In this document: positions 7,815-22,844 of the stretch, in pieces
How positions within the stretch are numbered: position 1 is the stretch's first letter
How the letters are laid out: every line of letters starts with the position of its first letter
Position numbers and translations under genes: made by a program
Notes under the pieces: model-generated
Told to the model about the DNA's origin: nothing
Database searches by the model: none
The model's input: the letters and a program-made list of their open reading frames with translations, nothing else
Assembly (NCBI GenBank): GCA_938015595.1
Contig: CALLPI010000006.1
Location: 62,001-126,000 of the forward strand
Source of the DNA: an uncultured Saprospiraceae bacterium
GTDB taxonomy: Bacteria; Bacteroidota; Bacteroidia; Chitinophagales; Saprospiraceae
Reading direction: 5' to 3'
DNA length: 64,000 nucleotides

Positions 7815-10800
7815 ATGAAAAAACTCTCACTGGTTCTTGCACTGGCACTATTTGTGCTGGGCGCTGCCTCAGCACAGCGCACTGTCAGTGGTGTAGTGTC
7901 AGATACCAAGGGCGAGCCGCTCATTGGAGCGAGTGTACTCGCCAAGGGCACTACCATTGGCACCACTACGGATGTAGATGGCAAGTACAGCCTTACCGTG
8001 CCTGGCTCCGTCACTACCTTAGTGGTGTCTTACACTGGCTATGCCACCAAGGAGGTCGCCTTGGGCGTATCCAACGTGGTGGATGTAAGCCTAGAAGAAT
8101 CCTCCGAAACCCTAAAGGAGGTACTGGTTACGGCCATTGGCATTCAGCGCGAGAAGAAAGCACTAGGCTATGCAGTAGTAGAATTGAGTGCTGACCAGAT
8201 AGCGCAGCGCTCCGAGCCGGATGCCTTGCGTGCGCTGGCCGGCAAAACACCTGGGGTTATTATCCAGGGCGCTGGTGGTATTCCGGGGCAGTCCACTAAG
8301 ATCAATATCCGGGGCAACTCTTCGCTTCTGGGCAACACCCAGCCCTTGTTTGTAGTGGACGGCATCCCGTTTGACAACTCCGTCAACGCCTCTACAGGGG
8401 CCAACGGCGGCTCGCAGTACTCCAACCGCGCCTTCGACATTGACCCCAACAACATTGAGTCCATGACCATTCTCAAAGGTGCTGCTGCCTCAGCCTTGTA
8501 CGGCTCACGTGCAGCCAACGGCGTGGTGGTCATTACTACTAAAACTGGAGCAGGCAATAAGCGTAAAGGACTGGAAGTGACCTACAACTCGTCCTACCAG
8601 GCCGAGCAACTCTCGGGTATTCCTGATTACCAGAATGTGTATGGCCAAGGTGCCAACCAAATATACAACGGTGGCTTTATCGGCAACTGGGGCGCTCCTT
8701 TTGCCGAGCATGTAGACCGCCTGAATGCCCAATACGGCACATCATACTCCAAGGTGATTGTACCTGGTTATCCGGAGGGTACTGTACCGCATCCGTTAGT
8801 ATCTTTGGGCTACACCACGCCGCGCTACGCCAACGTATTCCCTGAATTCTGGGAAGACAAGAACAACAATGGTCGCTACGACAGTGGTGAGGCTATTCCT
8901 GTGCCTTACCGGCCTTACGATTTCATTAAAGAGTTCTTCAACCAGGGCAATCTTTGGGAAAACTCCTTGTCTATCAATGCAGGCGGCGACAAGTCTGCCA
9001 TCAGCACTACGGTATCGCGTATGGACAACCAGGGTATTGTACCCAACTCCAAGTCGTCGCGTACCACGCTCAGCTTTGGGGGCAACTCCCAACTCACCAA
9101 TGGCTTGGTGGTATCTGGCAATGTCAACTACGTGAATACCACCCAGGCTAACCCCCCCATAAACGGCTCTATATTTGAAAGCGCCTGGTATGGCGGGGCT
9201 GCCGAAGGCTCTATCTTCAGCCGCTTGTTTTACCTGCCACGCAACTACAACCTGATGGGCTATCCGTTTGAAAACCCGGTGAGCGGCGACAACGTCTTCT
9301 ACCGCGCACTAGACAACCCGCGCTGGCTGGCCAAGTACAACGGCTACGAATCTAACCTCAACCGCGTATTCGGCAACATTACGCTCAGCTATGACGTACT
9401 ACCCTGGCTCAACCTGACAGCCAAGGGCGGTGCCAATACCTACAGCGAAGCACGCCGCAACCGCGTGCGTCCTGGTGGCGTAGCCGATCCCAACGGTGGC
9501 GTATGGACGGACGACCTGACCAACACAGAGATTGACTTCAACTACATTGCTACAGCCAACTTCAAAGCAGGTAGCGATTTTGACATCCGGGTACTGGCTG
9601 GCCTCAACCAGAACCAGCGCTCCTTCAACCGCCGGTTTATCCAAGGCGACAACATCATTTCTACAGGCCTCTTTACCCTCAATGGCACCTCGACGCAGAT
9701 TGCCGGTGCTGACTTCCGCCGGCTGCAGCGCCTCTATGCACTGTACAGCGATATTCAGGTGGCCTACAAAAACTTCCTCTACGTGGGTATCGTAGGCCGC
9801 AACGACTGGTCTTCTACTCTGCCTCCGGGCAACAACAGCTACTTCTATGGCGGCGCCAATGCTTCTTTCGTACTGACTGATGCCTTTAATATTGCCAACA
9901 ATACATTCAGCTTTGCTAAGATACGTGCTGCCTGGCAGCAGGTGGGCAACGAAGCGCGCCCGTACGAAACCAGCACAGTGTACCGGCTCAATACGCCCTT
10001 TACGACGGCTGGCGGCACCATCCTCAACCGTGCTTCTCTGGACAACCGCCTGGGCAATGCCAACTTGCGCAACGAGCTGACCACTGAGTTGGAGTTCGGC
10101 GCCGATGTACGGTTTTTCCGCAATCGCCTGGGCATTGACTTCACCTGGTTCAAGCGCAACTCCACTGACCAGATCACTGCCGCCGAAACGCCTCGCTCCA
10201 GCGGCTTCAGCAGTGCCATTGTGAACGCCGGCGAAATTGAAAACAAGGGTATCGAAATTGGCATAGATATCACGCCCGTCAAAACCAAGAACTTCACCTG
10301 GAATACCTTCATCAACTTCACTCGGGTGCGCTCCTTGGTGCTGGACGTAGGCGAAGGCACGCAACTCTTCGTGGGCGGTGTAAGCTCTAGCTTGGGTACC
10401 ATCCACCGCGAGGGCAAACCCTACGGGCAGATATTTGGTATTCCAATTGCCCGTACCAACTCCTACGATGCTGACGGCAAATACCTGGGGCAAGGGCAGA
10501 TACTGATTGACAAATCTCTGGGCACTACCATCCTGCTGCCTACTTCAGAGATCATCGGCGACCCCAACCCAGACTTCATCGCTGGCTTTGTGAATACGTT
10601 CACACTGTTCAAGAATTTAACAATCAAGGCATTGATTGACTGGCGCCAGGGCGGTGATGTCTACACCATCACAGGGGGAGCATTGCTGGCACGTGGTCAA
10701 CTCAAGATTACAGAAGAGCGCGAAGCCCTGCGCATCATACCTGGCGTGTATGGCGACCCCGCCACACAGAAGCCCATCACCAACGAGCAGGGGCAGTTTA

Positions 10801-11147
10801 TTCGCAATACCACGCCGATTACTTCGTTCGACTACCACTTCTCCAATGGCTTTGGCCCGTACGGCGGCGACGATACCAATGTGTTCGATGCCACAGTAGT
10901 ACGCCTGCGCGAGGTGTCGCTGGCTTATGACTTCCCTAAAAAGGTGCTGCAAAAAACGCCGTTCGGCTCAGCGCGCGTTTCGCTCTCTGGCCGCAACCTG
11001 TGGTTCCGCGCTCCCAACTTCCTGAAAGGGCTGAACATGGACCCAGAAGTGCTGGCAGAGCCTGCTGACTCCAACGTACAGGGGTTTGAGTATGGCTCGG
11101 CGCCCACTACTCGCCGCTTTGGGGTAAACCTCTCTGTGACATTCTGA
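7815..11147 (+). CDS. SusC/RagA-type TonB-dependent outer-membrane transporter 2
   Basis: This 1110-residue protein is the second SusC-type transporter. It has a signal peptide ending ASAQ, a carboxypeptidase-like domain (about residues 21-100) and a plug with QPLFVVDGIPF and the classic LKGAAASALYGSRAANGV motif, then a barrel ending in phenylalanine (VNLSVTF). Its first 110 residues and its leader are much closer to transporter 1 than the rest is, as if the export and TonB-interaction part is shared while the barrel has diverged for a different ligand (inference). The ATG at 7815 is chosen because the signal peptide starts there, not at the in-frame ATG at 7791. It heads an operon with the SusD-like and lipoprotein genes that follow. 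Confidence 0.93.
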   Translation: MKKLSLVLALALFVLGAASAQRTVSGVVSDTKGEPLIGASVLAKGTTIGTTTDVDGKYSLTVPGSVTTLVVSYTGYATKEVALGVSNVVDVSLEESSETLKEVLVTAIGIQREKKALGYAVVELSADQIAQRSEPDALRALAGKTPGVIIQGAGGIPGQSTKINIRGNSSLLGNTQPLFVVDGIPFDNSVNASTGANGGSQYSNRAFDIDPNNIESMTILKGAAASALYGSRAANGVVVITTKTGAGNKRKGLEVTYNSSYQAEQLSGIPDYQNVYGQGANQIYNGGFIGNWGAPFAEHVDRLNAQYGTSYSKVIVPGYPEGTVPHPLVSLGYTTPRYANVFPEFWEDKNNNGRYDSGEAIPVPYRPYDFIKEFFNQGNLWENSLSINAGGDKSAISTTVSRMDNQGIVPNSKSSRTTLSFGGNSQLTNGLVVSGNVNYVNTTQANPPINGSIFESAWYGGAAEGSIFSRLFYLPRNYNLMGYPFENPVSGDNVFYRALDNPRWLAKYNGYESNLNRVFGNITLSYDVLPWLNLTAKGGANTYSEARRNRVRPGGVADPNGGVWTDDLTNTEIDFNYIATANFKAGSDFDIRVLAGLNQNQRSFNRRFIQGDNIISTGLFTLNGTSTQIAGADFRRLQRLYALYSDIQVAYKNFLYVGIVGRNDWSSTLPPGNNSYFYGGANASFVLTDAFNIANNTFSFAKIRAAWQQVGNEARPYETSTVYRLNTPFTTAGGTILNRASLDNRLGNANLRNELTTELEFGADVRFFRNRLGIDFTWFKRNSTDQITAAETPRSSGFSSAIVNAGEIENKGIEIGIDITPVKTKNFTWNTFINFTRVRSLVLDVGEGTQLFVGGVSSSLGTIHREGKPYGQIFGIPIARTNSYDADGKYLGQGQILIDKSLGTTILLPTSEIIGDPNPDFIAGFVNTFTLFKNLTIKALIDWRQGGDVYTITGGALLARGQLKITEEREALRIIPGVYGDPATQKPITNEQGQFIRNTTPITSFDYHFSNGFGPYGGDDTNVFDATVVRLREVSLAYDFPKKVLQKTPFGSARVSLSGRNLWFRAPNFLKGLNMDPEVLAEPADSNVQGFEYGSAPTTRRFGVNLSVTF

Positions 11148-19003: not shown

Positions 19004-19288
19004 CGGTAAAAACTAAGGCATACTCCCCCTCCCTGACGAGTAGTTGCCTCGGCAACAAGTCGCCGCAAATGTACAGATGGCCATCAATCAATGCAGCCCC
19101 GAGGCACATTGAGATTTAGGCACTTATTTGGAGTGTGCTACGCATGATCAACACTGTTGCCAGCAGGCCAGCGCCGGATTCTCATCATCTTTATTGTGTC
19201 TCTTTTCTTGCTTCGCTCGCCAATGAGTTTTATCCTTAATTTAATTATACTATGCTGAGAAAGGCCTCCTGGCTGCAGCATAAAGCGT

Positions 19289-19296
19289 TACCTTTG
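19289..19296 (+). promoter_or_regulatory. Candidate -7 box of marC
   Basis: TACCTTTG matches TAnnTTTG and lies 24 bases before the chosen marC ATG. It falls inside the upstream open frame that starts at 19252, which supports the shorter start. No clear TTG at -33. Confidence 0.4.
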
Positions 19297-19320
19297 CTGC
19301 TACAAAAGCACTCAAAAGCC

Positions 19321-19947
19321 ATGGAACTCTTGCTCGCAACACTTTTCTCCCTGTTTTCCATAGTAGACCCACCCGGCGCGTTGCCAGTGTATGTGTCGCT
19401 AACTGCTGACCTGGACAAAAAGCAACGCAACAGACTTGCCCTGCACACCAGCCTATACTTCCTGCTCATTCTGGTGGGGTTTTTCCTGGCCGGTACGTAC
19501 ATACTGAGCTTCTTCGGACTTTCGGTATATGCCATGCGCATAGCCGGCGGCATGGTACTGCTGAGCACCGGCTTTGGGTTGATGGGCACCAACTTTTCCC
19601 GACACAGAGGCTACAACGAAGCCGTACAGGCCGATGCAGCCAGCCGCTCTGAAATAGCTTTCACGCCTATGGCCATGCCCTTGCTTTCGGGGCCGGGGTC
19701 TATCTCGTACCTGATCATGCAGTTCAAGCAGCATCCCGAGTGGTCGGAGCGTCTAATCATCTTGCTAGCCATACTGGCCATGGGTGGTTTGGTATGGCTC
19801 AGCCTGCGAACGGCACCTTTGCTGTTTCGCATTTTCGGCGCCGGTGGCTTGTCGGCCATTGCTCGTATCATGGGTTTCCTCGTGGTAGCCCTGGGTGTAC
19901 AGTTCATTGTGGATGGGTTGGTTCATCTGGTCGAAGTTATTGAATAA
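19321..19947 (+). CDS. MarC/UPF0056 family integral membrane protein
   Basis: The 208-residue protein has about six hydrophobic helices and the family marks SIVDPPGALPVYVSLT near the N-terminus, a GGMVLLSTGFGLM helix, and FTPMAMPLLSGPGSISYLI before the fourth helix. MarC proteins are inner-membrane proteins of unknown function; the name comes from an early link to antibiotic resistance that has not held up. I use the ATG at 19321 since the first membrane helix begins there and a -7 promoter box lies 24 bases upstream. The pseudogene that follows starts 9 bases after the stop, so it may once have been co-transcribed. Confidence 0.9.
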   Translation: MELLLATLFSLFSIVDPPGALPVYVSLTADLDKKQRNRLALHTSLYFLLILVGFFLAGTYILSFFGLSVYAMRIAGGMVLLSTGFGLMGTNFSRHRGYNEAVQADAASRSEIAFTPMAMPLLSGPGSISYLIMQFKQHPEWSERLIILLAILAMGGLVWLSLRTAPLLFRIFGAGGLSAIARIMGFLVVALGVQFIVDGLVHLVEVIE

Positions 19948-19955
19948 CGGCAAGT

Positions 19956-20863
19956 ATGCACCTGCACGATGTAGTTTTGCTTACGGAATCCTGTGCTACA
20001 CTGCTGCTGAGGCTGCTCCAGACGACTGGTATTTGCAACAAATTCTTGCCGAAGACCGCCTCCTGGCCGAAGCCCTACAGGCGCGTGGCCTGAAGGTAAT
20101 GCGCAAAGACCGGGCCGACCCCACCTTTGACTGGGCTAGCACCCGCCTGGCTGTGTTTCGCACTACCTGGGATTACTTCCATCGCTTTGCCGAGTTTTCC
20201 ACCTGGCTGGAACAGGTGGCGCCACTGACGCAATTGGTCAATGCTCTGGCGCACTCATCCACTGGAACATTGGCAAGCGCTACCTTCTGGTACTGGAGGG
20301 TGCGGCGTCCTCATTGTACCCATCTACCTCATCCGGCGTGGTGCGACAGCATCGCTGGCGCAATGGCACGAGCAGTGCGGCTGGGTCAAGTAAGAGATCG
20401 TGCTCAAGCCTGCCATTCCTGGCGGTGCTCGCCATACCTACCGCATCCGTCCAGGTCAATGGGCGCATTATGAGGCGGTATTTCAACAACTTGTAGCTGC
20501 CAAAGACATGCTCCCACAACCCTTCCAGCACACTGTGCTCACCCAAGGCGAAGTTTCCCTCATGGTCATCGGCGGGCACTACATCCATACCGTACAAAAA
20601 ATTAGCTAAGCCTGGAGACTTTCGCGTACAGAACGACTTTGGCGGCACAGTACATGCCTACACGCCCGATGCTGAGGCCCGAACGTGCCGTAGCGGCTTG
20701 CCCTGAGCCACCCTTGTATGCTCGCGTGAACCTAGTACTCACCAACGCCAGCAACCCAGCCGTAATGGAGCTGGAACTGATAGAACCTGAACTGTGGCTG
20801 CGTTTTCACCCACCGGCAGCCATGCAGATGACCGACGTACAGGCCAACCTGATAAGCATTTGA
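19956..20863 (+). pseudogene. Decayed ATP-grasp (RimK-like) protein gene
   Basis: Pieces of one protein are spread over all three plus frames in the correct order. They are MHLHDVVLLTES (from 19956), then WYLQQILAEDRLLAEALQ with VFRTTWDYFHRFAEF, then HWNIGKRYLLVLEG (about 20254), then LIVPIYLIRRGATASLAQW, then EIVLKPAIPGGARHTYRI (about 20394), then KPGDFRVQNDFGGTVHAYTP (about 20608), then ELELIEPELWLRFHP to the stop at 20861. The order fits an ATP-grasp protein of about 290 residues: the RTTWDYF segment, the WNxxKRYLL link, the KPAxGGGxxxT lysine strand, and the closing E-L-x-x-x-EPELW metal-binding motif. At least five frame changes and one in-frame TAA (20391-20393) separate the pieces, so no functional product can form. 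The genes on both sides are intact, which argues against general sequencing error. Confidence 0.85.
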
Positions 20864-21027: not shown

Positions 21028-21537
21028 TCACTGCACGGCATCCATAGCGTCAAAAAATAGGCGCAAACGCGCTTCATCGCCTGACTGGGGAAAGCCTGTA
21101 GCATCGCGTAGTTCCAAGTCATGTATGTAGCGCTTGCGCAGGTGCAGCAGCAGGCGCACCAAGGCAGCGTGAATCTCGGGGCCGGCCCATTGCGTTTCAG
21201 TGGATAGCCAGACTCTCTTGGGCGGGTATCGCTCTCCAGCATCCAAAGCCAGATGAAAGGGCGAACTAAGCGTGCCATCAGGGCGAAATACCAGCCACAG
21301 TGGCTCGGCTTGCGGGTGCGGATGTAAGCATATTCCCCGAAGCGCAGTATGCCCCACGATCTGTATGCCGGCACCGCGTATGCTCTCAAAGTGCGCATCC
21401 ATGGGGTAATTCCAGTCTTCGTTCCACAATTCATAGGGCCAGCCCATGATCCGAGCTATATCCTCTACCTCATCGGTGAGCTTGGCCACGTAGGCGCGGT
21501 CGAAGATACTACCCCTGTACTGAATGCTGATGCTCAT
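21028..21537 (-). CDS. Conserved hypothetical protein
   Basis: The 169-residue protein has no signal peptide or membrane helix and reads as a soluble mixed alpha/beta protein. A segment of the form LSTETQWAGPEIHAALVRLL and a later ELRDATGFPQSGDE stretch resemble, by memory, a group of unassigned bacterial proteins with STKTQFAGPExH motifs. No function is known to me. It is transcribed divergently from dnaN and has the palindromic repeat copy A about 60 bases beyond its stop. The window's codon style and the lack of overlapping genes support it as real. Confidence 0.75.
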   Translation of the reverse strand: MSISIQYRGSIFDRAYVAKLTDEVEDIARIMGWPYELWNEDWNYPMDAHFESIRGAGIQIVGHTALRGICLHPHPQAEPLWLVFRPDGTLSSPFHLALDAGERYPPKRVWLSTETQWAGPEIHAALVRLLLHLRKRYIHDLELRDATGFPQSGDEARLRLFFDAMDAVQ

Positions 21538-21717: not shown

Positions 21718-22833
21718 ATGAAATTTAGCGTATCCTCCTCTGAACTGCTCAAACAACTCCAGGTGGCGGGTGGTGCCATAGGCTCCAACCCCGTTTTGCC
21801 TATCCTGGAGGACTTCCTCTTCTCTATCATCCACAATAAGCTAACCATCACTGCTTCTGACCTGGAAACCACTATCATCACCGAGATGGACGTCGTGGCT
21901 GATGCAGATGGTTCTGTGGCCGTACCAGCCAAGATATTGCTCGAGACGCTTAAAGCCCTGCCCCAGCAGCCCGTTACTTTCTCCGTCAATCCTGACAATC
22001 ACAGCATTGAAATTACTTCGGCTTACGGCAAGTATCGCCTGGCTGGCGAGAATGGCGATGACTTCCCCCAAGTACCTGAACCCGATGGCGTGGACAGTGC
22101 CACCCTGCCAGCTTCTGGCCTGCTCGATGGCATTTCCAAAACCATTTTTGCCACCAGCAATGACGAGCTACGCCCCGCTATGACGGGTGTGTACTTCCAG
22201 GTGGATTTCAACAAGCTCACCATGGTGGCCACCGACGCCCATAAATTGGTGAAATTCACCTTTGCCGATGTCGTCAGCGATGTATCCACTGCCTTCATCG
22301 TGCCCAAAAAAGCGCTCAACCTACTCAAAACCGCCTTCGCTGGCCAAGATAAAGTAACCCTGGCCTTCAACAAAGCCAATGCCTTCTTTACCGTAAACAA
22401 TACCCGTCTTATCTGCCGTCTTATTGATGCCCGCTACCCTGACTACAACGCCGTGATCCCTGTCGGTAACCCCAACATCCTTACCGTATCGCGCAATGAC
22501 TTCCAGAACTCCCTCAAGCGCATTGCCATCTACGCCAACAAAACTACCAACCAAGTTATTCTCAATATTAACGAAGGCAGCCTCACCATCTCCGCTCAAG
22601 ACCTCGACTTTTCCAACGAAGCTACCGAACAAATGACTTGTTCTTACCAAGGCGATCCGCTTATCATCGGCTTCAATGCCAAATTTCTCATTGAGATGCT
22701 GGGCGTACTGGAGTCTGATGAAGTCAAAATGGAATTGGCCAGCCCTTCGCGCGCCGGTATCCTGCTGCCTACAGAAGAAAAACCCGGCGAGCAGATACTC
22801 ATGCTGGTCATGCCGGTGATGCTTAGCAACTAG
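21718..22833 (+). CDS. dnaN: DNA polymerase III beta sliding clamp
   Basis: DnaN forms the ring-shaped dimer that tethers DNA polymerase III to DNA. The 371-residue length is normal. The start MKFSVSSSELLKQLQVAGGAI is typical, as are LEDFLFSI (about residue 30), the FPQVPEPD segment in the first domain, TATDAHKLV-type residues in the second domain (VATDAHKLVKF), ARYPDYNAVIP in the third, and the C-terminal MLVMPVML. I chose the ATG at 21718 over a much earlier open frame because it fits the family and the promoter box 33 bases upstream. It heads a likely operon with the lipoprotein gene and nadD. dnaA is not in this window. Confidence 0.96.
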   Translation: MKFSVSSSELLKQLQVAGGAIGSNPVLPILEDFLFSIIHNKLTITASDLETTIITEMDVVADADGSVAVPAKILLETLKALPQQPVTFSVNPDNHSIEITSAYGKYRLAGENGDDFPQVPEPDGVDSATLPASGLLDGISKTIFATSNDELRPAMTGVYFQVDFNKLTMVATDAHKLVKFTFADVVSDVSTAFIVPKKALNLLKTAFAGQDKVTLAFNKANAFFTVNNTRLICRLIDARYPDYNAVIPVGNPNILTVSRNDFQNSLKRIAIYANKTTNQVILNINEGSLTISAQDLDFSNEATEQMTCSYQGDPLIIGFNAKFLIEMLGVLESDEVKMELASPSRAGILLPTEEKPGEQILMLVMPVMLSN

Positions 22834-22844
22834 CGCTATTGCGT

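Follow-up and report, generated by a model that had tools for sequence, protein, structure and literature searches.

The broken gene and its pieces

In the window (the whole stretch of 64,000 nucleotides that was analysed), the gene of a MarC-family membrane protein is followed by a region that very probably represents a unitary pseudogene of a DcsG-like ATP-grasp ligase. Downstream lie a gene on the minus strand and dnaN. The features of this region are listed below.

19252..19947, plus strand: gene of a MarC-family membrane protein, intact (Pfam PF01914, E 1.3e-52; unbroken relative to the congeners)
19956..20863, plus strand: putative unitary pseudogene, derived from a DcsG-like ATP-grasp ligase gene (supported by frame-aware alignment with three intact orthologues and by shuffle and window controls)
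19956, plus strand: start ATG of the pseudogene, 8 bases past the stop of the MarC-family gene
19956..19991, plus strand: N-terminal piece, frame 0, MHLHDVVLLTES (three-frame translation and frame-aware alignment)
19994..20245, plus strand: second piece, frame 2, with the TTWDYF region (frame-aware alignment and fragment search)
20248..20301, plus strand: third piece, frame 1, IHWNIGKRYLL (frame-aware alignment; borders within a few bases)
20303..20604, plus strand: fourth piece, frame 0, KPAIPGGARHTYR, holding the in-frame stop (translation and alignment; borders within a few bases)
20391..20393, plus strand: in-frame TAA stop (three-frame translation and frame-aware alignment)
20605..20678, plus strand: fifth piece, frame 1, AKPGDFRVQNDFGGTVHAYTPDAE (translation and alignment)
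20681..20863, plus strand: C-terminal piece, frame 2, running from ERAVAAC through RVN to EPELW and up to the stop (translation and alignment)
20861-20863, plus strand: TGA at the end of the pseudogene
21028..21537, minus strand: intact flanking gene, without a Pfam match, with unbroken orthologues in both congeners
21718..22833, plus strand: dnaN, encoding the DNA polymerase III beta clamp, intact (Pfam; unbroken relative to the congeners)

The original prediction had read the region as fragments of one ATP-grasp protein, placed in correct order in plus frames 0, 2, 1, 0, 1, and 2 and interrupted by an in-frame TAA at 20391. Translation and frame-aware alignment agreed on this succession of frames, counted from the ATG at 19956, the stop was present in both, and alignment to intact orthologues assigned all pieces to a single protein. 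The references were the proteins of the two congeners, G134 and G031, and that of a further family member, G001. With these three orthologues, the frame changes were located near 19992, 20245-20251, 20299-20302, 20605, and 20676-20681. The first four correspond, in order, to net length changes of +2, +2, -1, and +1 bases. The fifth is a net loss, which amounted to three residues plus two bases with one reference and to four residues with one extra base with the other two.

The frame-aware protein-to-DNA aligner was purpose-written for the present analysis; a MAFFT alignment of the DNA, which included one locus reversed relative to the others, was discarded in its favour. Identical residues numbered 175 of 295 aligned with G031, 178 of 289 with G134, and 168 of 288 with G001, and the second piece alone was 73% identical to G134 and 70% to G031. 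The frameshift-aware protein search, which had been proposed beforehand, recovered a single protein across the frame jumps: the alignment of the G031 protein over 19956-20863 reached a score of 858 with six breaks. Sixty shuffled versions of this DNA peaked at 44, and 60 stretches from elsewhere in the window at 40; thus, the homology of the region to the G031 protein is not due to chance. Applied to 77 relatives (80 loci minus L053, L056, and L101, which had no match from a simple ORF caller at 1e-30 and are also absent from the neighbour-group and conserved-residue counts), the same aligner found no break in any of them, which indicates that it does not create false breaks. Of the three loci left out, L053 is on a contig equal in length to that of L008, whose copy is open. 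A Pfam search with three separate pieces of the pseudogene gave no match above a cut-off.

Family identity and distribution of the ligase

The original prediction had assigned the protein to the RimK-like ATP-grasp enzymes. This was roughly right, and the nearest named family proved to be DcsG. Intact orthologues showed weak matches to RimK-like and glutathione-synthetase-like ATP-grasp domains; the G134 orthologue matched the RimK-like domain PF08443 with 24.1 bits (cut-off 21), over part of the protein only and much more weakly than it matched DcsG. At the genome level, scanning G031 with PF08443 yielded nothing at E ≤ 0.001, which makes assignment to this domain family marginal. By comparison, all eight aligned intact orthologues matched D-cycloserine synthetase, DcsG (NF058666), with a best E value of 4.1e-55. 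The best solved-structure match of the orthologue profile was likewise the DcsG structure (PDB 6jil), with an E value of 1.5e-38 over most of the length. However, the G134 orthologue scored 186.9 bits against the curated cut-off of 360 for NF058666, which places it outside the DcsG equivalog. As judged by these profile matches, the predicted enzyme is a DcsG-like ATP-grasp ligase outside the DcsG equivalog and, unlike DcsG, the copy in the window is broken. A literature search on DcsG, cycloserine, and ATP-grasp returned nothing on the subject, as judged from the listing.

Searches with the G031 protein revealed one open copy each in G031 and G134, the two other genomes of the genus. In the genome of the window (G000; 3,770,988 bases in 27 contigs), the same search gave only the four fragment matches and no second copy. 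A PF08443 scan of G000 yielded nothing above the family cut-off, the weak match observed (20.3 bits) lying within a 947-codon frame elsewhere. With the best-preserved piece as a query, matches were found in 20 of the 199 genomes of the family, the window's own included, and in 15 of its 112 genera, a short query that divergent family copies may escape. This patchy spread indicates that the gene is accessory. In the wider family, at least 559 relatives were confirmed among 588 stretches obtained from genome contigs with two peptide patterns. The best 80 of them were used here, and the taxa listed among these are Bacteroidota, Balneolaceae, Planctomycetota, Chlorobiota, Ignavibacteriales, Eisenbacteria, Polyangiaceae, and a Pleionea.

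None of the neighbouring genes qualified as a constant operon partner: the commonest neighbour groups occurred in 18 of the 77 relatives, and within 20-kb stretches around the copies in G134, G031, and G001 no window gene other than the ATP-grasp gene was present. In both congeners, the ATP-grasp gene is located on different contigs from the MarC gene, the gene at 21028, and dnaN; gene order is reshuffled generally, so these separate contigs say nothing special about the ATP-grasp gene.

Relaxed constraint and the reality of the breaks

Branch-specific dN of the ATP-grasp gene (291 codons) was 0.188 for the window, 0.116 for G031, and 0.106 for G134, so that non-synonymous change on the window branch was about 1.7 times that of its sisters. 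The flanking genes displayed no consistent dN excess in the window: the values for window, G031, and G134 were 0.066, 0.032, and 0.070 in the MarC gene, 0.123, 0.128, and 0.116 in the gene at 21028, and 0.041, 0.035, and 0.037 in dnaN. The dN excess of the ATP-grasp gene, about 0.08 per site, suggests that the putative gene death came late on the branch, within a small final portion of it, although pS values of 0.62-0.75 in this comparison are near saturation and make the dating crude.

Conserved residues were compared at 59 positions that are at least 97% conserved among 78 intact sequences (L036 and L037, duplicates of G001 and G031, were also removed). Six of them are altered in the pseudogene, namely W51R, D104G, E181K, D224N, D260N, and A294T in G031 numbering. 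Intact members carried on average 0.49 altered positions, with none in either congener and a maximum of five in L085; the count of the pseudogene is therefore high, but not far past the worst intact case. D260 belongs to the RVD motif and, from ATP-grasp enzymes generally, we take it to be a metal ligand. It was also claimed initially that every motif could still be read. The quoted pieces were indeed found, but where the pseudogene has KRYLL both congeners have KHYLL, and RVD has become RVN. The suggested rebuilding of the ancestral enzyme would be of little use, since living orthologues exist at about 60% identity.

The same changes bear on whether the breaks are real. The genome is a 27-contig draft, and errors of sequencing or assembly could have introduced artefactual indels into an intact gene. 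We regard this as very improbable, because indel artefacts would explain neither the substitutions at conserved residues nor the raised dN, and the length changes vary in size and direction. Moreover, the flanking genes are intact, as originally stated: the MarC gene, the gene at 21028, and dnaN are without breaks relative to the congeners, as are the gene at 22839 and nadD against both congeners, and two genes at 44-45 kb against G134 only, one of them covered over 153 of 208 residues. This makes widespread error in the assembly unlikely.

Still less probable is that the pieces remain functional, either through programmed frameshifts or as small proteins encoded by the open pieces. Third positions do differ more (0.53-0.61) than first and second positions (0.21-0.30), but such an excess is expected in any recently coding sequence. 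Five differently sized shifts plus a stop, with no break of any kind in the 77 relatives, argue against both versions, as do the arbitrary places at which the protein is cut and the replacement of the Asp of the RVD motif by Asn.

We consider it highly probable that the region is a recent unitary pseudogene, in which a DcsG-like, single-copy accessory gene behind the MarC-family gene has lost its function in this lineage. The initial call of a recent pseudogene is borne out by the breaks, the open orthologues of the congeners, the failure to find any other copy in the genome, the relaxed constraint, and the clean flanks. Homology extends across the frame breaks, no intact copy was found elsewhere in the genome, and constraint is relaxed; indels, a stop, relaxed constraint, and the lack of a second copy are shared with bacterial unitary pseudogenes generally, and nothing is unusual here. 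The pseudogene is a genuine yet ordinary case of recent gene loss.

Probable gene loss in the genus

Having ceased to be needed, the gene very probably gathered the five frame-changing indels, the stop, and the substitutions at otherwise conserved residues, and the locus would now yield no enzyme. Such a loss would be tolerated if the gene is dispensable, as its patchy distribution in the family suggests.

G000 (3.77 Mb) is about 1.7 Mb smaller than the congeners (5.4 and 5.6 Mb). Genome-wide decay in G000 was considered and set aside: sampled coding density was 0.873 in G000 (244 kb; the window plus nine stretches) and 0.890 in G134 (140 kb) with a crude gene caller, and long gaps were also similar. 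Coding density close to that of G134 offers no hint of a general wave of decay to account for the gene loss.

The loci of the congeners differ from each other. In G134, the ATP-grasp orthologue (L116:9998-11653, minus strand) is part of a 552-codon open frame, fused with an upstream transposase-like frame. The latter carries an NHFH motif and presumably resembles REP-associated transposases; Pfam gave no transposase match for this part at 0.001, and two distant relatives of it occur elsewhere in G134, with none in G000 or G031. At the junction (10895-10965), two 35-base arms separated by one base form a perfect inverted repeat, and the ATP-grasp part is without its usual start region. In G031 (locus L117), the upstream part of the open frame 9165-10430 runs through short repeats, translated as KPQATSGKLQAASYKRQATSGK, which probably represent non-coding repeats lying ahead of the true start.

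A tentative and rather doubtful reading is that the DcsG-like ligase has been repeatedly lost or rewired in this small genus, being decayed in the window, joined to a transposase-like frame in G134, and normal in G031. If so, its substrate or product would be needed in some niches only. The loss of this gene changes no view of biology; it is a clean case in which an accessory enzyme gene was lost recently and can be compared with open copies in both sister genomes. It could provide a test case for pseudogene callers and a natural contrast for the function of the DcsG-like family.
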